Below, piece after piece: positions 9,390 to 27,137 of a stretch of 29,750 bases of DNA. The notes under the pieces were generated by a model that worked only from the letters and a program-made list of their open reading frames with translations, was not told the origin of the DNA and made no database searches. The position numbers and the translations under genes were made by a program. The stretch comes from a virus. Each line of letters begins with the position of its first letter. Position 1 is the first letter of the stretch. The DNA is taken from the IMG/VR virus record IMGVR_UViG_3300023273_001196, positions 1 to 29,750 of that record; one strand, written 5' to 3'.

Positions 9390-9519
9390 GTTCTAGTTCT
9401 TCAGTAAGTTCTTTGATTCTGATGTATGCTCGCTGTAGTTGAGATTGAAGTTCTTGAACATTACGCACTAGAATTTCTTCCCTAATGTGAGGTGAAGCCG
9501 CATTAGGCATATCAACCAT
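9367..9519 (-). CDS. 50-aa coiled-coil protein
   Basis: A short gene starting at 9519 and overlapping the GroES-like stop by eight bases. It encodes MVDMPNAASPH followed by a continuous heptad-rich helix, residues 12-46, ending in charged ELEREK. It fills the gap between GroES and FkbM in the same direction and is probably translationally coupled. A small scaffold or oligomerisation protein is likely; no family recognised. Confidence 0.6.
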   Translation of the reverse strand: MVDMPNAASPHIREEILVRNVQELQSQLQRAYIRIKELTEELEREKSKTS

Positions 9520-9871
9520 TTACTTGATGCCCCATAGTTGGATTTGTGTATACATCAGTTGGCGCCTCATCGCTTATGCCCAGAATATCATCCGGGTCTA
9601 CTGTGCGATGTGTTTCGCCATTTAGATTAAACCCGCGTGACCAACGACCGTGTGCTACTAGGATCCACTGTCCAACAGTAACATCTTCCTGCTCGTGGCC
9701 AACAGCTACTACTTGAGCCCAGCGTGGATGAATACCACGTAGTTCGCCGTCATCACTGGGTAGAATTAAACCACCTGCTGTACGTACTTCATCAAATTTC
9801 ATTTGCTTTACTAGCACACCATCATGTAGTGGTTTTAATGTGCCTGTGATATTTGTAGTTGATACTGGCAT
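9512..9871 (-). CDS. GroES/gp31-like co-chaperonin
   Basis: The 119-aa protein follows the GroES pattern: LKPLHDGVLVKQ near residues 12-23, the mobile-loop/strand segment TAGGLILPSDDGE, then VVAVGH, VGQWILVAHG and the closing DDILGISDE. Phage co-chaperonins such as T4 gp31 replace GroES on host GroEL for folding the capsid protein. There is a C-terminal extension of about 18 residues relative to GroES. It lies in an operon with a 147-aa protein, one base apart. Confidence 0.88.
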   Translation of the reverse strand: MPVSTTNITGTLKPLHDGVLVKQMKFDEVRTAGGLILPSDDGELRGIHPRWAQVVAVGHEQEDVTVGQWILVAHGRWSRGFNLNGETHRTVDPDDILGISDEAPTDVYTNPTMGHQVNG

Positions 9872-10344: not shown

Positions 10345-10352
10345 TATTTATC
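10345..10352 (-). promoter_or_regulatory. late promoter GATAAATA
   Basis: GATAAATA on the minus strand contains the TAA stop of the DNA polymerase III alpha-like gene and lies 29 nt upstream of the ATG at 10316. Confidence 0.55.
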
Positions 10353-10869
10353 TTAAAAAATCTTCAACATCTAAATTATAGTATAAACTATCGATCTTGT
10401 GTATGCCTATCAGATACAATACGTAAGAACTAACACTACTACCACGACCCACTCCCCATACTATATTATTTTGTCGCATCGTGTCAACAAAATATCTTAG
10501 GAACTTTAGTAGATCAAGCAAATCACGTTCCTGAAACATTAATAGTTCTTTGCCTACACGCTGCAACTGGTCTTCAGTTTGGCATTGTTCCAAACACCAT
10601 TTAGCAATGTCGAACTCCTGATATTCCACAGGCATATGCCAACACTGTTGGTTAGCTTTATGATATTCATCAGGTGTACACTTTAGATCAGTTGCTGGGG
10701 TTAATGTAGGATAACCACTATATAGTAACTGGTTAGCCTTATTGAACTGATCTACATCACTGATATCCAGAGTATTTAGATCTAAGGCAGGATTGATGTA
10801 TAACGAATGTATTACATCATCTTCACTGAAGATTTGTCTACTGTAACTATCCAGCGTCATCAGGGTCAT
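10348..10869 (-). CDS. DNA polymerase III alpha-like fragment protein
   Basis: The last 60 residues of this 173-aa protein match the DnaE palm entry: a helix FLRYFVDTMRQNNIVWG, then GRGSSVSSYVLYLIG at 141-155 (DnaE: GRGSAAGSLVAYALG), then IDSLYYNLDVEDFL. The protein stops where DnaE would continue to FLNPER and the catalytic aspartates (PDFDIDF), so it cannot polymerise DNA. The upstream 110 residues are not recognisable as the PHP domain. The start at 10869 is supported by AAGGATAACG; the ORF overlaps the upstream gene by 23 nt. It probably retained a binding or regulatory role. Confidence 0.75.
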   Translation of the reverse strand: MTLMTLDSYSRQIFSEDDVIHSLYINPALDLNTLDISDVDQFNKANQLLYSGYPTLTPATDLKCTPDEYHKANQQCWHMPVEYQEFDIAKWCLEQCQTEDQLQRVGKELLMFQERDLLDLLKFLRYFVDTMRQNNIVWGVGRGSSVSSYVLYLIGIHKIDSLYYNLDVEDFLR

Positions 10870-11473
10870 CGTTATCCTTGGGTACAATCCTAGGCTTAAA
10901 TGCGTTTAGCCTAACCACTTTTTTATCTTCTGCCTCAAATTCTAATCCTAGTTCATGCCAGTCTAGTTTTGTAATATTAAGACCGTCCTCGTCTAGGTCA
11001 AAATACTCAATACAAGGCTTATACCAGTATTCTGTATACTCTTTGGTTGTCTCGTCTGCTAGCTGTAAGAGAGTTTCCATATCTCCACTTTCGCAGTCAT
11101 ACGTATGAGTAATACCTTCACCCTGATCGCTAGTTACACCAACACTCTCTACGAGGAATACTTTGTCTAGTATACTATTAAACTTAGTGTATAAGCAAAT
11201 ACTAATCAAATGATCATAGGGTTCATCAGGTAACAAGTGTACTTTACCTTCAAACCCTAGAGCTTTATTGAATGCTTCAGTATGTTCAGGCCCAATCAAA
11301 ATACTGTTATCTAAAATGGTGCTGATATATAACTGGATCCTTTCCAGTGCTGTGTTATAATTCTTAGCAATATTTTTGTTAGGAATTAGGTTAACACTAA
11401 GGTGCCAGGTATTAGGAATTAGTGTATTGTTCACCACAATACAGGCGCTAAAACGTTCTTCTAGTCTAATCAT
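10847..11473 (-). CDS. hypothetical protein
   Basis: The 208-aa protein begins MIRLEERFSACIVVNNTLIPN and contains NTWHLSVNLIPNKN; it is acidic at the C-terminus (DNDDPDD). No catalytic motif is visible. It overlaps the preceding gene by ATGA and the following polymerase III-like gene by 23 nt. The three-gene overlap chain with MazG upstream suggests early or middle expression and a nucleotide- or replication-related role, by context only. Confidence 0.7.
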   Translation of the reverse strand: MIRLEERFSACIVVNNTLIPNTWHLSVNLIPNKNIAKNYNTALERIQLYISTILDNSILIGPEHTEAFNKALGFEGKVHLLPDEPYDHLISICLYTKFNSILDKVFLVESVGVTSDQGEGITHTYDCESGDMETLLQLADETTKEYTEYWYKPCIEYFDLDEDGLNITKLDWHELGLEFEAEDKKVVRLNAFKPRIVPKDNDDPDDAG

Positions 11474-19634: not shown

Positions 19635-19949
19635 ATGCTAAATATTTGTATGCATATATCTACCTTAATAGAACGAACTAGTTATATCCGCAGGCGAAAT
19701 AATAAAGAGGAAGTTGTTAAAGCCAATAGAAAAATATATGTGTTAAAATGTGATAACTGTCTGACAGAATTTACCAGGTCAAGTAAACAAATGAAGTCAT
19801 CCAGGGCTAACAATTTTGTTACACATGTTTGTGAAAATTGTGATACAAAGCGATTTGCACAAACACGTAGTACAATTAGTAGAAGGATAAATTCTTATGA
19901 TGCGAGTAGCAATATTACTATTGACAGTCTTTTTAACAACCGCCGCTAA
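19635..19949 (+). CDS. zinc-ribbon-like small basic protein
   Basis: A plus-strand gene of up to 104 aa with two Cys pairs, CDNC and CENC, about 30 residues apart, a zinc-ribbon arrangement, within a basic background (RRRNNKEEV). A GCTAAATA motif at 19637-19644 overlaps the first ATG and would place transcription start at the second ATG, 19650, giving a leaderless MHISTL form. The 3' end overlaps the HtrA-like gene by 53 nt in another frame. A nucleic-acid-binding role is inferred. Confidence 0.6.
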   Translation: MLNICMHISTLIERTSYIRRRNNKEEVVKANRKIYVLKCDNCLTEFTRSSKQMKSSRANNFVTHVCENCDTKRFAQTRSTISRRINSYDASSNITIDSLFNNRR

Positions 19950-20925
19950 TGCTAATGACTTTGTAGCATTGGTAGAGAAAACACTTCCAGGAACTTGTGT
20001 AGTTAATGCTGTACAAGAAACAACGGTTATAGATAGCAAAAAAAACTATATAGAAGAATATAAAAACTTGCCTAAAAAGCAAAAATTTTCCCAAGAGGAA
20101 AAAGGAGCATCTGGTACTTGCTTTGTTGTTAAATATAACAACAAAAATTATATTATAACAAACCATCATGTTATAGACAATACTGGCAAGTTATATATTA
20201 GATTTTATAAAGAAATAAAACGCTATCCAGCAAAGATAGTTGCGTCAGACAAAAGAGTAGACATAGCAGTCCTAGAACTATTAGATCAGGAAAAACTAGC
20301 TAACCTGAAATCATTGAACTGGGGTAGTAGCGAAAATCTAAAAAAGGGCGAGGCTGTTTGGGCTATAGGTCATCCACTGGGCTTTGAATACACTGTAACT
20401 ACAGGTGTTGTGAGCAATGAGTCCAGACGCTCGTATGGTGCTTTCCAAGAACTGATACAAACAGATGTGGCAATCAATCAGGGAAATAGCGGTGGCCCGC
20501 TCCTAGATATGGATGGCAAAGTGGTTGGTGTTAATACTATGATTATTAGCAATACAGGCGGGGCTGCAGGCGGACAAATTGGAATTAACTTTAGTGTAAG
20601 TAGTCGAGTAGCCAATTACACTAGTAAGGAATTAATTAAGTCTGGAAAAGTATCTAGAGCAAGAATAGGCATGATATATTTTGCAGATCAGGACACTGGT
20701 ATGGTGAAAATAGTAGAAGTGCCTGAAAATATGCCAGCGAAGATTGCTGGTATTAATAAAGATGACTTCCTGCTAAAACTTAATGATCAAAAGATTCTAG
20801 CTATGGAAGACGTATCATTTGCTATGGATTTCGTAAAGGGTGGCGACAGTGTTAAAATTATTGTTAAACGCGGAGACAGTATATTACTAAAAAATATTGT
20901 AACTATAGAAGCGCCTGCAGACTAA
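19897..20925 (+). CDS. secreted HtrA/DegP-like serine protease
   Basis: The 342-aa protein begins with a signal peptide (hydrophobic residues 3-17, cleavage near AANA), indicating export to the periplasm. A trypsin-like domain shows the triad His91 in TNHHVI, Asp122 in KRVDIAVL and Ser198 in GNSGGP, and the HPLG loop of HtrA proteases. A single PDZ domain occupies residues 250-335. Host HtrA proteases degrade misfolded envelope proteins. AAGGATAAATTCTT precedes the ATG. Lack of a second PDZ makes it DegS-sized. Confidence 0.92.
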   Translation: MMRVAILLLTVFLTTAANANDFVALVEKTLPGTCVVNAVQETTVIDSKKNYIEEYKNLPKKQKFSQEEKGASGTCFVVKYNNKNYIITNHHVIDNTGKLYIRFYKEIKRYPAKIVASDKRVDIAVLELLDQEKLANLKSLNWGSSENLKKGEAVWAIGHPLGFEYTVTTGVVSNESRRSYGAFQELIQTDVAINQGNSGGPLLDMDGKVVGVNTMIISNTGGAAGGQIGINFSVSSRVANYTSKELIKSGKVSRARIGMIYFADQDTGMVKIVEVPENMPAKIAGINKDDFLLKLNDQKILAMEDVSFAMDFVKGGDSVKIIVKRGDSILLKNIVTIEAPAD

Positions 20926-21236
20926 GCACTAAAACTTTCGCCGCAGCCACACTGCGCTGTTGCCATGGGATTCTTTACTTTAAGAAAACTGCCACCTAGT
21001 TCCTGCACATAGTCTATTGTGCTACCCAGCAGGAACATTTCAGCTATAGGATCTACAACCAGTATGTCCTCAATTGGATCACTCCAGTTAACAGAGTCGT
21101 CTGTAGAGTCCTTACTTAGTCCCCAGACATATTGCATGCCACTACAGCCGCCACCCTTGACGCTCAGTGTTACATGTCCTTCAGGACACACTGACTTCAA
21201 GTAGGTTTTCGCTGACTCTGATACTGTTACTAGCAT
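20922..21236 (-). CDS. IscA/ErpA-type iron-sulfur carrier
   Basis: Starting at 21236 (MLVTVSESAKTYL), the 104-aa protein keeps the three ligand cysteines of A-type carriers: Cys31 in KGGGCSGMQY and Cys96/Cys98 in QCGCGESF. Family length is about 107 residues. A-type carriers pass Fe-S clusters to apo-enzymes. The longer reading frame to 21317 is unlikely because it would add a region lacking similarity. It overlaps the convergent HtrA stop by four bases. Late motif AATAAATA at 21356-21363 precedes the pair. Confidence 0.92.
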   Translation of the reverse strand: MLVTVSESAKTYLKSVCPEGHVTLSVKGGGCSGMQYVWGLSKDSTDDSVNWSDPIEDILVVDPIAEMFLLGSTIDYVQELGGSFLKVKNPMATAQCGCGESFSA

Positions 21237-21312
21237 GTTTACAAGTTTCTCCGCAATCACACTCTGACAAAAATTCAGGATCAATAAGAGCTTCGCCTTC
21301 GCAAAACTCCAT
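21181..21312 (-). CDS. 43-aa Cys-rich small protein
   Basis: An ORF not previously obvious, starting at 21312 behind AGGATTTATGGT and overlapping the iscA-like start by 56 nt in another frame. It encodes MEFCEGEALIDPEFL followed by CDCGETC, with Cys at 4, 18, 20 and 24, a possible metal- or cluster-binding cluster. A late promoter at 21356 predicts a leader just upstream. Coding is inferred from context and could still be a by-product of the IscA reading frame. Confidence 0.45.
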   Translation of the reverse strand: MEFCEGEALIDPEFLSECDCGETCKHASNSIRVSENLLEVSVS

Positions 21313-21355: not shown

Positions 21356-21363
21356 TATTTATT
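21356..21363 (-). promoter_or_regulatory. late promoter AATAAATA
   Basis: AATAAATA on the minus strand overlaps the IF-1 stop region and precedes the Cys-rich ORF and the IscA-like gene. Confidence 0.5.
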
Positions 21364-21580
21364 TGTGTCGAAAACTTATGCGGCCCTGTGTCATATCATA
21401 AGGTGTCATTTCTAGACTTACCTTATCATCTACTAACACATTAATTCTATTAAGCCTCATTTTACCGCTTAAATGAGCTATGATTTCTCTATCATAATCA
21501 TCTAGTTTAACTAGAAATTTACCACCAGGTAAAAGTTTTGTGACTACGCCAAGTAGTTCGAGATATTCTGCTTTAGACAT
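21359..21580 (-). CDS. infA: translation initiation factor IF-1
   Basis: The 73-aa protein aligns with bacterial IF-1 over its full length: [16 protein letters not shown] at the first OB strands, [16 protein letters not shown] in the centre (canonical AHISGKMRKNYIRIL), and [13 protein letters not shown] at the end. IF-1 occupies the ribosomal A site during initiation and helps IF-2 and IF-3. No other translation-factor gene is in the window. Its mRNA starts at GATAAATA (21628-21635) and has a 5' hairpin at 21600-21620; AAGGAT precedes the ATG. Confidence 0.95.
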
Positions 21581-22975: not shown

Positions 22976-23003
22976 ATAATAACATTTTTTACTTCTAAGT
23001 CAA
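22976..23003 (-). promoter_or_regulatory. sigma-70-like early promoter
   Basis: GGTTGACT, 16 nt, TATTATA with extended -10 TGT on the minus strand. Its -35 overlaps the stop codon of the amidotransferase gene. Confidence 0.7.
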
Positions 23004-24295
23004 CCGTAATTATTGTAACCTGGATGCTGACTACCAAAACCAGCTACCCTTACTGGTATACTTATCGCTCTATCGTCTAAGTACTTGGTTTGTATGGGCT
23101 TTGTACTAGTATTTTTTAAACTAGATGTCGTGTTTATCCATGATTGTACAAGTTCAGTATCATAAAAAACATTGCGTACCTCCATGCCATAACCTAATGA
23201 TACTGTTTCATGATAATCTAGCAGCCTTCTAGATTGCCCACCATAAAAATGCTGCCAGGGAAATACTGTTTTAAGATCAGTAGGCCAGCTGGTAAATTCG
23301 GACTTTCCCTTAAAGATATAATTCTCTAACATTTCATCACTGCCATTGCCCATTAAGATTACACGATTACCGAAACGATTGATTGATTCTTCCCTGATCT
23401 GATTTTGTACTGGCATGCTGGTATTATTTAAAATGCGCTGCCTACGAGCACTTAGATCACTAACCCAATCCTGTCTTTGTGTTATTTCATAATGAGTATT
23501 GTAATTTTTAGAGTATTCCAAAACATCTGCTAATGTATAAGTATCCTCTGCTGGTGCTACATTAAGAGTTATGCTCTGGAACGGCAGTTTATGATCAGTA
23601 AGACAGGCAGCAATGCAAGTGCTGTCATATCCCCCGCTTAAAAATAAAACAGCATCTGGTTTATATCTTTTAAGTATAGCCTGCTCAAACTTTTCAGTGG
23701 CCAGATCCAGATTGTCTACAGTTTGATCCAGATTCCATTTATGAAGTTCAGGATTTACAACTGTCAATGTTTGCGAACTATAGTTGAATCTGTAATGGGT
23801 ATTGTGTGACAGTCTGTTATATTTTTTGGACCAAACTGGATCATCTGTTTTTCTAAACCTAGGACTTGCTGGTTCTTCCATGGGAAATGTACTAAAGTAC
23901 CAGTAACCCTCATGGTCATAATAGTAAATTTGCCTGGTGCTCCAGGTGTCTGTAAAAATGTCAAGGGTTTTGTTACCAGGATCTGCCACTATAAAAAGAT
24001 ATTCGCCATCCAGATACTGGGTAAAATTCTCTCCGTGTTTTTGATATTGTTGTATGCCATAAAAGATATCACTAGGCAAACTAGTATCCCAGTTATAAAT
24101 TTCTCCCAGGAGCATATAGTATTTGCCAGCAGACAGAACTGGCTGTGGTGTATAGGTTCCTGTAATGCTTAACAGATAATGAGTAAGATAAGCACCATCC
24201 AGATCTACAGTCAGATTTGTATCAGGTCCACCAAAACAGAGTAGGTCTTCTATTGGTGTAGGATTAGGATTATTTGTTATTTTGAATGTACACAT
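23000..24295 (-). CDS. asparagine-synthetase-like glutamine amidotransferase
   Basis: The 431-aa protein has both domains of the family. The N-terminal class II glutaminase begins with Cys2 (MCTF), with GEIYNW near 64-69 and an Asp counterpart at 76. The C-terminal ATP-pyrophosphatase domain has LSGGYDST at 219-226, MGNGSDEML near 309 and MEVRN...D..LV. One point is odd: at the oxyanion-hole Asn (N of NGEIYNH) this protein has Leu63. It is shorter than AsnB (554 aa). Substrate may be Asp, or a carboxylate activated by the neighbouring ligase. Starts inside the ligase gene (26-nt overlap). Confidence 0.88.
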   Translation of the reverse strand: MCTFKITNNPNPTPIEDLLCFGGPDTNLTVDLDGAYLTHYLLSITGTYTPQPVLSAGKYYMLLGEIYNWDTSLPSDIFYGIQQYQKHGENFTQYLDGEYLFIVADPGNKTLDIFTDTWSTRQIYYYDHEGYWYFSTFPMEEPASPRFRKTDDPVWSKKYNRLSHNTHYRFNYSSQTLTVVNPELHKWNLDQTVDNLDLATEKFEQAILKRYKPDAVLFLSGGYDSTCIAACLTDHKLPFQSITLNVAPAEDTYTLADVLEYSKNYNTHYEITQRQDWVSDLSARRQRILNNTSMPVQNQIREESINRFGNRVILMGNGSDEMLENYIFKGKSEFTSWPTDLKTVFPWQHFYGGQSRRLLDYHETVSLGYGMEVRNVFYDTELVQSWINTTSSLKNTSTKPIQTKYLDDRAISIPVRVAGFGSQHPGYNNYG

Positions 24296-25604
24296 GGGCT
24301 AATTCAGTAAGTTTCTTCCTATCAACTTTACCAGGCTTTATTAGTGGCAATTCTGTTTCCACGCTACAGTAGGCTATTTTAATATTCAATTCTGATAATA
24401 TATTATCTAGCACACCACTTGTTTCTCCAAAAGTATGGCATTCTAAGAACAAGTATGGTTGTTCTATAGTAGGCATGTCTGGTAACTTTACACCTACGCA
24501 ACATGCTTCTTTAATAAACGGCAACCTTTTTGCCACTCTTTCTATTTCTAGAGGATTTATATCATGACCGCCTTGTGTTAGTAATAGCTTTTTCCTGCCA
24601 ATTATTCGCATGTAACCCTGACTATCTAGTTCAGCTAGGTCGCCTGTTGCGTAATACCCATCCTGAATTGGCTTACCAAATCCTAAACGTTCTACAACAT
24701 ATTTGGCTTCTACTAATATTTCGCCATCAGCATCAATCTTTAAACCTACAGGTTTGCCTATTGTTGTAATTCTTTTTTCTTGTGGATCGTCTATACTGCA
24801 CATATGAGGTTCACTAGTATCAGCTCTGTTACAGTGTTGTATAACCGCACCCTCAATAAGTGATTCCATTTTATAAGCATGATCTACATTAAGAGGTCCG
24901 CCTCCTACATCCCACACTCTAGGACTCAGTTTTTTAAAAGTGCCCTTTGCCAATAAGCTATTACACTGTTCTAATAAAAGTACTTTACTCAGTACCCCGC
25001 TTGTACTAAAAATAACACTGGGCTTGTATTGTATAATATAAACAAAATTATCATATATTTCTGTACTATTACCTATCAGCAAGGTTGCACCAGATGTAAG
25101 GGTACGAACTATACTACTATCTCCCAGTCCAACATTTAAAGGTGTGGCTAGAGTAAGTATACTATCAGTAGGTGCGATTTTTAATCTGTTTGATATGGTA
25201 CGGGCGTGGTCCAACCTATCTTGCTGCGTACTATAAAAAAACTTGGCAAGATCGGTTGTACCACTACTCATACGTATCTGATAACCATCAGACTTGTAAT
25301 AAAATACTTGCTTGATAAAATCTAGTTGTAACCCGGTTTGCTCTGGTGTTACAAATGGATTAACGCAGAAGAAAATCTTTCCTACAAGAGTACATGCTAG
25401 CATTTCTAATACAAGTTCATACCCATTGGGTTTATTAATTACATGAACTTGAGTAAGATCTGGATCTATAGTTTTGCTATGGGCAATAACATCGGCGTAG
25501 AGTTCACTGTAGCTAATTTTCCTAGCAGTACAAATTTCGTGGATAGCCAGATGATCAGGCCTGGCTTCCACATGTTTCAAAATATAATCAAATATTTTAG
25601 ACAT
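24270..25604 (-). CDS. ANL-superfamily acyl/amino-acyl adenylating enzyme
   Basis: The 444-aa protein, started at ATG 25604 (MSKIFDYILK), carries adenylate-forming motifs: A3 SSGTTDLAKF at about 113-122, A5-like DTSEP, A7 YATGDL, A8 GYMRIIGRKKLL with GGHDINPLEIE, and A10 PLIKPGKVDRKKL with its catalytic Lys. No ketosynthase, carrier or condensation domain is attached. Such enzymes convert a carboxylate into an acyl-AMP and often an acyl thioester. The only precursor of its mRNA seen is the tRNA-Ser 3' end, seven nucleotides upstream; there is no Shine-Dalgarno. Confidence 0.88.
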   Translation of the reverse strand: MSKIFDYILKHVEARPDHLAIHEICTARKISYSELYADVIAHSKTIDPDLTQVHVINKPNGYELVLEMLACTLVGKIFFCVNPFVTPEQTGLQLDFIKQVFYYKSDGYQIRMSSGTTDLAKFFYSTQQDRLDHARTISNRLKIAPTDSILTLATPLNVGLGDSSIVRTLTSGATLLIGNSTEIYDNFVYIIQYKPSVIFSTSGVLSKVLLLEQCNSLLAKGTFKKLSPRVWDVGGGPLNVDHAYKMESLIEGAVIQHCNRADTSEPHMCSIDDPQEKRITTIGKPVGLKIDADGEILVEAKYVVERLGFGKPIQDGYYATGDLAELDSQGYMRIIGRKKLLLTQGGHDINPLEIERVAKRLPFIKEACCVGVKLPDMPTIEQPYLFLECHTFGETSGVLDNILSELNIKIAYCSVETELPLIKPGKVDRKKLTELAHVYIQNNK

Positions 25605-25610
25605 AGTCAA

Positions 25611-25700
25611 TGGCGGTGAGGGTGGGATTCGAACCCACGGAACCTGTTAAGGTTCGCACATTTAGCAAACGTGTACTTTCGGCCTCTCAGTCACCTCACC
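25611..25700 (-). tRNA. tRNA-Ser(GCT)
   Basis: Minus-strand cloverleaf with long variable arm, anticodon GCT at the loop TTGCTAA (reads AGC/AGU), acceptor GGTGAGG/CTCACC-type stem with G73 and encoded CCA. The adenylating-enzyme gene begins seven nucleotides beyond the CCA. Confidence 0.93.
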
Positions 25701-25712
25701 TTATTTTCCTTA

Positions 25713-27137
25713 TTAGCTAATTGGTCCCATCGGGATTGGATTAACGGGCATTGTTGTGTACACCGGAGGAGGGGGCGGAGCATATACTGAACTCGGCTCA
25801 CTGGGTGGATTGTTTTTCAAACTATTAGCTTGATTTTGTGCATCACTCTGTCCACGTAGCGCAGTCTTAATGTCGTTATTGTCCATCACGCTATCCATTA
25901 GGATACTCATGCCTGCTGGGTTTTTACCACTGGCAGCGCCACCATAGTTACTTGCTTTCCAACTTACCGCACCTTCACCTCTGGGGAACCAAACATCAAC
26001 TTGTGATGTGGTGTCAAATCTGTTCCAGTGTAGGACCATGTTGTCACCAACATAAACTTCTGCTTCGTTGTCACATGCTACAGCAATAGTATAATAGCCT
26101 TCTAGTGGAATATTAAACTTAACACTGCCTTCCCAGGTAGCACGATTGTCCGTGGGCCACAAACTATTATTGTTCATAAAGTTACAATAGGCACCATTTG
26201 TGACACGATGTAGTTGCGTGTGCTGTCCATTATTTGTTTGGAAGTTGTTTTGTTCAATCATACCTCTGTTAAGAACTGTTAGCTTTGCGCTATTATGACT
26301 AAATGTACCGTTAACACCACTTGGTTTTGTAAGTCCTGTGTTCTTGGGCGCGATGCCATTACAAACTAATGTAGTAACAACAGGAATAACGATACTAGCA
26401 ATAGCAGCACCAACTGTTTCTGGTGTACTCCAAAGCATCCAGTACACGCTCATGCTATTTGCAATACTGGTTGTAATAACACTGTTCAATAGGTCCTTGT
26501 TTACCTGTCCTTTAATACCTGGAATGTTATAAATTACAGGCGTAATAAAGTAAGCAATGCTTGCAGCAGCGCCATAGAATACAATACTAGCACCAGTACT
26601 AGGCAAACTTGCTGCTGCGGCTTTTGCTGCTAAGGCAAAGCCATTAATACTAAAGATACTTGCTTGATTTGGGTCTTCAGGGCCTTTATAAGTAAACGCT
26701 AGAATAACGCCTGTGCTGAGTGCGCTGCCTAGTGCTAGACTACAAGCATTTGCACTTACCCATTCATATGCTTCTTCGCCATACTTTACTACTGCTTCGG
26801 CACCTTCTTCTAGATAATGTTCAGTTGTTTTAAGACCGTCTTGATATTCTTTTGGTAAGCTGTCCCAACCCTCTTGTAAAAGGGTAGTGCTCAAATCACC
26901 TGCATTGTGTGTTACAGTAGCTACAGTTGCCTGAGGATTTGCTGCTAGACTATAACTGTAGTTGTAAGCATCTGTAAGTGCTTTGCTTGTGTCTTTGTAA
27001 GCATCGCTAGCATAGTGTTCGGTTGGCTGAATAACATTATCGTCAACCCACCCAGTAGCACTATTTACAGCGTCTTTTGTATCGTTATATGCTTTCTCAA
27101 TATCTTTACCCCACGTGGATGGATTATACCAGCTCAT
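25713..27137 (-). CDS. large membrane-active/virion-like protein with Pro-rich tail
   Basis: I do not recognise this 474-aa protein. Residues 1-125 form amphipathic helices (DIEKAYNDTKDAVNSA). Residues about 130-275 are hydrophobic with several candidate membrane helices (LALGSALSTGVILAFTY, VVTTLVCNGIAP), a layout like pore-forming or tape-like proteins. Residues about 330-420 are a beta domain with GYYTIAVACDNEAEVYVGDN, resembling PA14-type modules. The end is disordered and Pro-rich (PPPPPVY). A late motif upstream suggests a virion component. ATG at 27137 behind AGGAG. Confidence 0.75.
   Translation of the reverse strand: MSWYNPSTWGKDIEKAYNDTKDAVNSATGWVDDNVIQPTEHYASDAYKDTSKALTDAYNYSYSLAANPQATVATVTHNAGDLSTTLLQEGWDSLPKEYQDGLKTTEHYLEEGAEAVVKYGEEAYEWVSANACSLALGSALSTGVILAFTYKGPEDPNQASIFSINGFALAAKAAAASLPSTGASIVFYGAAASIAYFITPVIYNIPGIKGQVNKDLLNSVITTSIANSMSVYWMLWSTPETVGAAIASIVIPVVTTLVCNGIAPKNTGLTKPSGVNGTFSHNSAKLTVLNRGMIEQNNFQTNNGQHTQLHRVTNGAYCNFMNNNSLWPTDNRATWEGSVKFNIPLEGYYTIAVACDNEAEVYVGDNMVLHWNRFDTTSQVDVWFPRGEGAVSWKASNYGGAASGKNPAGMSILMDSVMDNNDIKTALRGQSDAQNQANSLKNNPPSEPSSVYAPPPPPVYTTMPVNPIPMGPIS

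Follow-up and report, generated by a model that had tools for sequence, protein, structure and literature searches.

Overlapping genes for an ANL-fold adenylate-forming enzyme and an AsnS-fold protein with an altered glutaminase site in a large myovirus-like phage

Background

AsnB and human ASNS (TIGR01536) combine a class II glutaminase domain with a PP-loop synthetase domain, and Lys449 is the catalytic lysine of AsnB. The AsnS fold can also work without glutamine hydrolysis, as in the beta-lactam and carbapenam synthetases, which have a tyrosine at the position of AsnB Glu348. MenE (o-succinylbenzoate-CoA ligase) and EntE are ANL enzymes, and the exosortase-A EPS clusters are a bacterial context in which both an ANL enzyme and an AsnS-type amidotransferase are found. 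In phages, genes annotated as 'asparagine synthase' are commonly listed under nitrogen metabolism. Glutamine is bound in AsnB by Arg49, Asn74, Glu76 and Asp98 (PMC11296641).

The window analyzed here is a virus record of 29,750 bases, and the analysis covers that fragment. It contains two overlapping genes encoding P0002, an ANL-fold enzyme, and P0001, an AsnS-fold protein. No paper describing this ANL/AsnS-fold pair was found in the literature. The two proteins are known kinds of enzyme, in varied form, in an unusual phage locus.

Results and discussion

Gene layout

The phage is large and myovirus-like. The window holds 11 tRNA genes (ARAGORN) and encodes a PhoH-like protein and a clamp loader; among phages, these proteins come closest to those of large myoviruses, PA5oct for example (50.7% identity). 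A sequence-only reading had described overlapping ANL and AsnS-like genes sharing 26 nt, with the motifs of both enzymes; its coordinates were right, and ORFs, profiles and models bear this description out (Table 1). Both reading frames are intact and lie on the minus strand. P0002 starts with an ATG at 25604, while an alternative TTG in the same frame, at 25610, would adjoin the tRNA-Ser gene; the start of P0001 is fixed by its N-terminus, MCTFKITN, which is common to the P0001 family. The overlap as such is not special, since overlaps also occur between several other adjacent genes of the window. GC3 and codon usage of the pair fall inside the range of the window's other genes and therefore give no sign of recent import. 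A scan of the window for promoter-like sites (25 versus 15.4 expected) and terminators (3 versus 3.2 expected) was uninformative.

The small ORF downstream of P0001 may be co-transcribed with the pair. In agreement with the earlier remark that no carrier protein is visible, PF00550 (PP-binding) was unmatched in the six frames of the 29.75-kb fragment, and a carrier may be encoded elsewhere. The small ORF was itself considered as a carrier protein and was rejected by profile; no phage homologue of it was found.

Table 1. Position of the P0002/P0001 pair, of adjacent features and of the residues discussed in the text
Feature	Coordinates	Strand	Basis or remark
P0002, ANL-fold adenylate-forming enzyme, 444 aa	24270..25604	-	PF00501, menE profile, AlphaFold, viral relatives
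P0001, AsnS-fold ATP pyrophosphatase with degenerate class II glutaminase domain, 431 aa	23000..24295	-	PF00733, Foldseek, viral relatives
Overlap of P0001 and P0002 reading frames, 26 nt	24270..24295	-	ORF coordinates
tRNA-Ser(GCT), directly upstream of the pair	25611..25700	-	ARAGORN
Acidic small ORF, 74 aa, 14 nt downstream of P0001	22761..22985	-	without known domain
Cys2 codon, P0001 (AsnB Cys1 equivalent)	24290..24292	-	family: Cys 44/53, Ser 9/53, the Ser in some tandem paralogues
Leu41 codon, P0001 (AsnB: Arg49, glutamine binding)	24173..24175	-	Leu 53/53
Leu63-Gly64 junction, P0001 (AsnB Val73-Asn74 deleted)	24104..24109	-	gap 53/53
Asn317 codon, P0001 (AsnB: Glu348)	23345..23347	-	Asn 44, Ser 8, His 1 of 53
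PP-loop SGGYDS, P0001 residues 220-225	23621..23638	-	alignment; Asp and Ser invariant 53/53
ANL phosphate-binding loop A3, SSGTTDLAK, P0002 residues 113-121	25242..25268	-	alignments; usual SGTTG here SGTTD
ANL A7 motif TGD, P0002 residues 320-322	24639..24647	-	invariant in alignment
ANL A10 catalytic lysine K426 (PGKVDRKK)	24327..24329	-	invariant in alignment

P0001 and its family

P0001 matched PF00733 (E=6.5e-8) and asn_synth_AEB (TIGR01536; E=8e-18), the latter with 64.7 bits, far under the cut-off of 267.1 bits. Its AlphaFold model, for which related sequences were included, is of usable quality (pLDDT 76, pTM 0.80) and has the full two-domain AsnS architecture. The best PDB matches of this model in Foldseek were human ASNS, AsnB and beta-lactam synthetase (E 1e-16 to 1e-20), and carbapenam synthetase was also matched. 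Like AsnB and ASNS, P0001 carries SGGxDS and GxGxDE motifs and, as do most members of its family, the N-terminal cysteine; unlike them, it has no equivalents of Arg30, Arg49, Asn74 and Glu348, and its C-terminus is shorter. The beta-lactam and carbapenam synthetases (Foldseek E about 1e-14 to 1e-18) resemble P0001 in that the Glu348 position is replaced in both. On the other hand, P0001 has Asn317 there (Asn, Ser or His in the family) and not tyrosine, the N-terminal cysteine is usually kept and a beta-lactam context is absent. Matches of the pair to the exosortase-associated profiles ligase_PEP_1 (TIGR03098, 52 versus 592 bits) and XrtA amidotransferase (TIGR03108, 19.7 versus 817 bits) were weak and did not reach the cut-offs.

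Relatives of P0001 with 39-56% identity occur in 48 IMG/VR records, whereas no member turned up when 84,980 bacterial and archaeal genomes were scanned by pattern, a method that can miss distant forms. The T4-like context of these relatives and a homologue in a cyanophage suggest that this is a family of marine phages. The cyanophage protein, the 'asparagine synthase' QFG06388 of Synechococcus phage S-SCSM1, is a distant but full-length homologue (26.6% identity, 94% coverage) in which, by reading, the Arg49 and Glu348 equivalents are also missing. It differs from P0001 in keeping Asn74, within NGQIYN, and no ANL gene is present in the whole 229-kb S-SCSM1 genome. Asparagine is never mentioned in the main text of the S-SCSM1 paper. 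Within the family tree P0001 was placed on a long branch and without firm support (88/84).

Tandem AsnS-fold paralogues were observed in IMG/VR records L001, L002, L011, L015, L017, L023-L025, L028 and others. In one clade of these the PP-loop SGG is changed to SSG, and several members have serine for the N-terminal cysteine, which suggests that the paralogues may have diverged in function after duplication.

The glutaminase site of P0001

The glutaminase site was compared in 53 full-length family members aligned with E. coli AsnB (K-12 genome). In all 53, Arg49 is replaced by Leu, Asn74 is deleted and Glu348 is replaced, and nine have Ser for Cys1, which makes a glutamine-fed amidotransferase unlikely. 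The Arg30 position is Gly in every member. Judging by these residues, P0001 is probably not an ordinary glutamine-dependent amidotransferase, and the label 'amidotransferase' should be dropped or qualified. A conventional enzyme of this kind, working downstream of an acyl-activating ANL and amidating the activated carboxylate with ammonia from glutamine, would account for the full two-domain architecture and for the residues that are kept, namely Cys2, Gly75, the Glu76 equivalent (53/53) and mostly that of Asp98 (43/53). We nevertheless consider it unlikely, since in addition to the losses at the glutamine site, an enzyme that makes its own acyl-AMP needs no ANL, and the related protein c4, described below, has no glutaminase domain at all.

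The synthetase side of the protein gave a different picture. The PP-loop residues Asp238-Ser239 (AsnB numbering) and the Asp and Glu of GxGxDE are kept in 53/53 members, including those only 39% identical to P0001, so ATP use by P0001 is plausible. The Lys449 position is not conserved in the family, in a C-terminal region where the alignment is unsure, and with the Glu348 position also not conserved even amide formation is uncertain. Because several catalytic residues are lost, these two included, the AsnS-fold protein could have altered catalysis or none at all and act as a partner that binds, scaffolds or regulates the ANL, which would then be the sole enzyme; the tandem clade with SSG in its PP-loop points the same way. 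Invariance of the ATP-site residues across the family and the SGGYDS retained by P0001 argue against this possibility, and we hold it to be quite unlikely.

P0002 and its relatives

P0002 matched PF00501 (E=3e-10, 39.9 bits, above the 29.9 cut-off) and the menE profile TIGR01923 (E=2e-23). The best PDB matches of its AlphaFold model (pLDDT 81, pTM 0.79) were MenE, EntE and other ANLs; the model was guided by ANL rows, so that its fold match is not independent evidence, while the profile matches are. In an alignment with 24 other ANLs (25 in all), the invariant residues K121 (A3), D322 (A7 TGD), R337 (A8) and K426 (A10) were all present in P0002, as they are in MenE and EntE. P0002 departs from these two enzymes, to which it is 18-27% identical, in lacking about 45 residues of the N domain near position 100, in reading CNRAD for the A5 motif YGMTE and in having Leu for the A8 hinge Asp. 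Further departures are SGTTD in A3 and Val for the A4 His. At the acid position of A5, a motif of the adenine pocket, P0002 has Asp in place of the usual Mg-binding Glu. Despite the shortened N domain, the adenylation core is retained. Inactive pocket residues in both enzymes would have counted against the sequence-only reading; the glutaminase pocket of P0001 is abnormal, but the PP-loop and the core residues of the ANL are intact.

Scans of IMG/VR with the whole protein or a C-terminal fragment gave no relatives of P0002, and an alignment of bacterial ANLs gave distant ANLs only. A fragment of the A3 region gave three, and the alignment with these raised the total to six IMG/VR records, 33-40% identical to P0002, three of them nearly identical to each other. 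Two ANL relatives also exceed the PF00501 cut-off, and the one in record L145 carries an in-frame TGA. The relatives have the same shortened N domain and Leu hinge as P0002, but their A5 motifs, LARAE, YGQRE and YGIAE, carry Glu as the acid.

The best bacterial ANLs were 21-33% identical to P0002, with no P0001-like gene within their 6-kb flanks. A bacterial origin of the pair was considered and rejected, these ANLs being distant and without such a neighbour, and the P0001 family being absent from the pattern-based genome scan.

A variable locus in T4-like phages

Most of the records with relatives are fragments, which limits the negatives that follow. An ANL was found in 0/48 P0001-family records with PF00501 and in 0/44 with a specific ANL profile (L145 and L150 as positive controls); likewise, the P0001 family was found in 0/6 ANL-relative records. 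The window is the sole place where both families occur together, and there they lie outside the T4-like locus, next to tRNA genes.

In the relatives, both families sit among T4-like head and tail genes (PHROGs: head-tail adaptor, head closure, sheath stabiliser and terminase subunits). These loci are usually arranged as gp13-gp14-gp15-(2OG oxygenase-like)-PP-loop c1-AsnS-fold (1-2 copies)-gp16-c4-gp17-gp18, and the surrounding head and tail genes indicate that the locus is probably expressed late. The slot between gp16 and c4 was visible in 34 loci. It is empty in 25; in five (5/6 ANL records) it contains the ANL gene, overlapping c4 by 8 nt; and in four it contains a gene for a DegT-type sugar aminotransferase (PF01041, 3e-28) followed by an AsnS-fold gene that overlaps c4 by 1 nt. 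In five further loci an AsnS-fold gene comes after c4 with a 19-nt overlap, and the AsnS-fold family overlaps c4 in nine loci. The c4 protein has the motifs SGGIDST and GGGGDE, is without a glutaminase domain and matched the P0001 profile with an hhalign probability of 82%, over only 69 columns; these features make it probably a lone AsnS-type synthetase domain.

The ANL and P0001 families are alternative residents of one variable T4-like late-gene locus, and an ANL gene overlapping that of a glutaminase-less AsnS-type synthetase is thus a recurrent arrangement. Homologues that never co-occur would have counted against the sequence-only reading: the exact two families are never together elsewhere, yet the ANL relatives overlap the AsnS-like c4. 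Since the ANL-c4 pair recurs, a functional link between ANL and AsnS-type enzymes is supported, although the exact pair of the window is unique.

That uniqueness would also be expected if the two genes were unrelated cargo lying side by side beside a tRNA gene, each acting alone or with other partners, so that their pairing has no functional meaning. In agreement with this, L031 and L032 carry isolated single-copy AsnS-fold genes, likewise abutting tRNA genes. Against it are the overlap of the two frames in the window and the overlaps with c4, that of the ANL being exactly 8 nt in all five records, which place both families in one shared neighbourhood. We regard an accidental pairing as less likely than not, but only slightly less likely than the explanation favoured below.

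Possible reaction and acceptor

The related T4-like locus also holds an Asp/Arg hydroxylase gene, and its genes c6 and c9 read like a 2OG oxygenase and a glycosyltransferase, respectively, neither with a Pfam match. Standalone AsnS-fold copies are flanked by 2OG oxygenases too, and in L147 a radical-SAM-like ORF was read by eye in the related locus. The oxygenases, the hydroxylase and the radical-SAM-like ORF could belong to a RiPP-like peptide tailoring system in which a peptide, or a side chain of a phage protein, is cyclised or amidated by the AsnS-fold enzyme in the manner of lasso cyclases. P0001 matched NCBIfam models of macrolactam and lasso cyclases weakly, but the scores were far under the cut-offs (13.3 versus 300 bits) and no precursor peptide was recognised, making peptide tailoring very improbable.

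The S-SCSM1 homologue belongs to a gene cluster that encodes GDP-mannose/GDP-fucose enzymes, fucosyltransferases and glycosyltransferases. Passages in two papers on pelagimyophages and cyanophages give alteration of the host surface as a likely, not a tested, effect of their glycan genes (PMC7029224, PMC9602691). Taken with the DegT aminotransferase, the S-SCSM1 glycan cluster makes an amino sugar a reasonable acceptor. The earlier proposal that the pair changes the host surface has a circumstantial link to surface or glycan modification; its alternative, modification of phage DNA, was not upheld, as no supporting gene was found.

The explanation that we favour, tentatively and as a possible one, is that the pair is an accessory biosynthetic cassette, shared with marine T4-like phages, for glutamine-independent acyl-AMP ligation onto an amine, possibly that of an amino sugar in an envelope or virion glycan. 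Each enzyme would activate a carboxylate as acyl-AMP; the ANL would load or hand over one acyl group, and the AsnS-fold enzyme would join a second acyl-AMP to an amine not derived from glutamine, by analogy with beta-lactam synthetase, which uses its substrate's own amine. More speculatively, the amine may be carried by an amino sugar within a glycan of the host envelope or the virion, and the product would be an N-acylated or amidated sugar formed late in infection. Besides the folds, the residue losses and the shared slot, the hydroxylase, c6 and c9 genes of the T4-like locus and the 2OG oxygenases beside standalone copies are counted in its favour. The earlier suggestion that the pair activates and amidates a carboxylate is kept here in part: two acyl-AMP-type folds as one unit, without a carrier, are consistent with it, but an amidotransferase fed by glutamine is not retained. 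Several observations stand against ligation onto an amine. The two families co-occur in the window only, and in the window itself no glycosyltransferase or sugar aminotransferase was identified; Cys2 is kept in 44/53 members, which a fully dead glutaminase would not require; the Lys449 and Glu348 positions are not conserved, which makes amide formation itself uncertain; and P0002 has both the Glu to Asp change in A5 and the shortened N domain.

A wider form of the same proposal, which we think rather improbable, is that a swappable locus in marine T4-like and larger phages encodes AMP-forming enzymes not related to one another (ANL, glutaminase-defunct AsnS-fold, c4 and c1) which jointly form glutamine-free amide or acyl links on a glycan or virion component. 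The pair in the window would then be a minimal two-gene version, a phage-specific acylation pathway without bacterial counterpart. If the ligation model is true, marine phages possess an exchangeable set of acyl-ligating enzymes, and the resulting modification of the surface or the virion could be found by mass spectrometry. The nitrogen-metabolism label is probably wrong for the P0001 family, given that glutamine-binding residues are gone and that the genes lie in a late-gene locus with ANL, sugar aminotransferase, PP-loop proteins and oxygenases.

Other genes of the window and of related contigs

The 474-aa protein encoded at 25713-27137 (-) is 96% and 92% identical to genes in IMG/VR records L043 and L044, and blastn revealed no other similarity between the window and the stretches of about 17 kb around these copies; it resembles an independently mobile gene lying between tRNA genes. 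The window also encodes a homologue of translation initiation factor IF-1 (21359-21580, -; PF01176, E=3.9e-19), a GroES-like co-chaperonin (9512-9871, -; Cpn10, 1.8e-9) and an IscA/HesB-type Fe-S protein (20922-21242, -; PF01521, 1.3e-12). The ORF at 19897-20925 (+) reads by eye like a secreted DegP/HtrA-type serine protease with a signal peptide. The ORF at 10348-10887 (-) matches phrog_11127 (2.5e-43), a phage DNA polymerase family just 171 positions long, which suggests that the polymerase gene at 10348-11473 (-) is split or fragmentary.

Among the related contigs, L053 (140-5389) has a standalone AsnS-fold gene directly after two 2OG-Fe(II) oxygenase genes (6e-17 and 6e-8) and two tRNAs, and a second PP-loop protein, with SGGVDST, is encoded downstream. 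In L025 (13280-14982, -), and also in L011, L016 and L021, two ORFs resemble an ABC transporter permease and an NMT1/THI5-type substrate-binding protein; they lie on the opposite strand between terminase and tail sheath genes in these T4-like contigs. In L150 (11833-14469), a homing-endonuclease-like ORF interrupts the frame of the terminase large subunit, as an intein or intron would.
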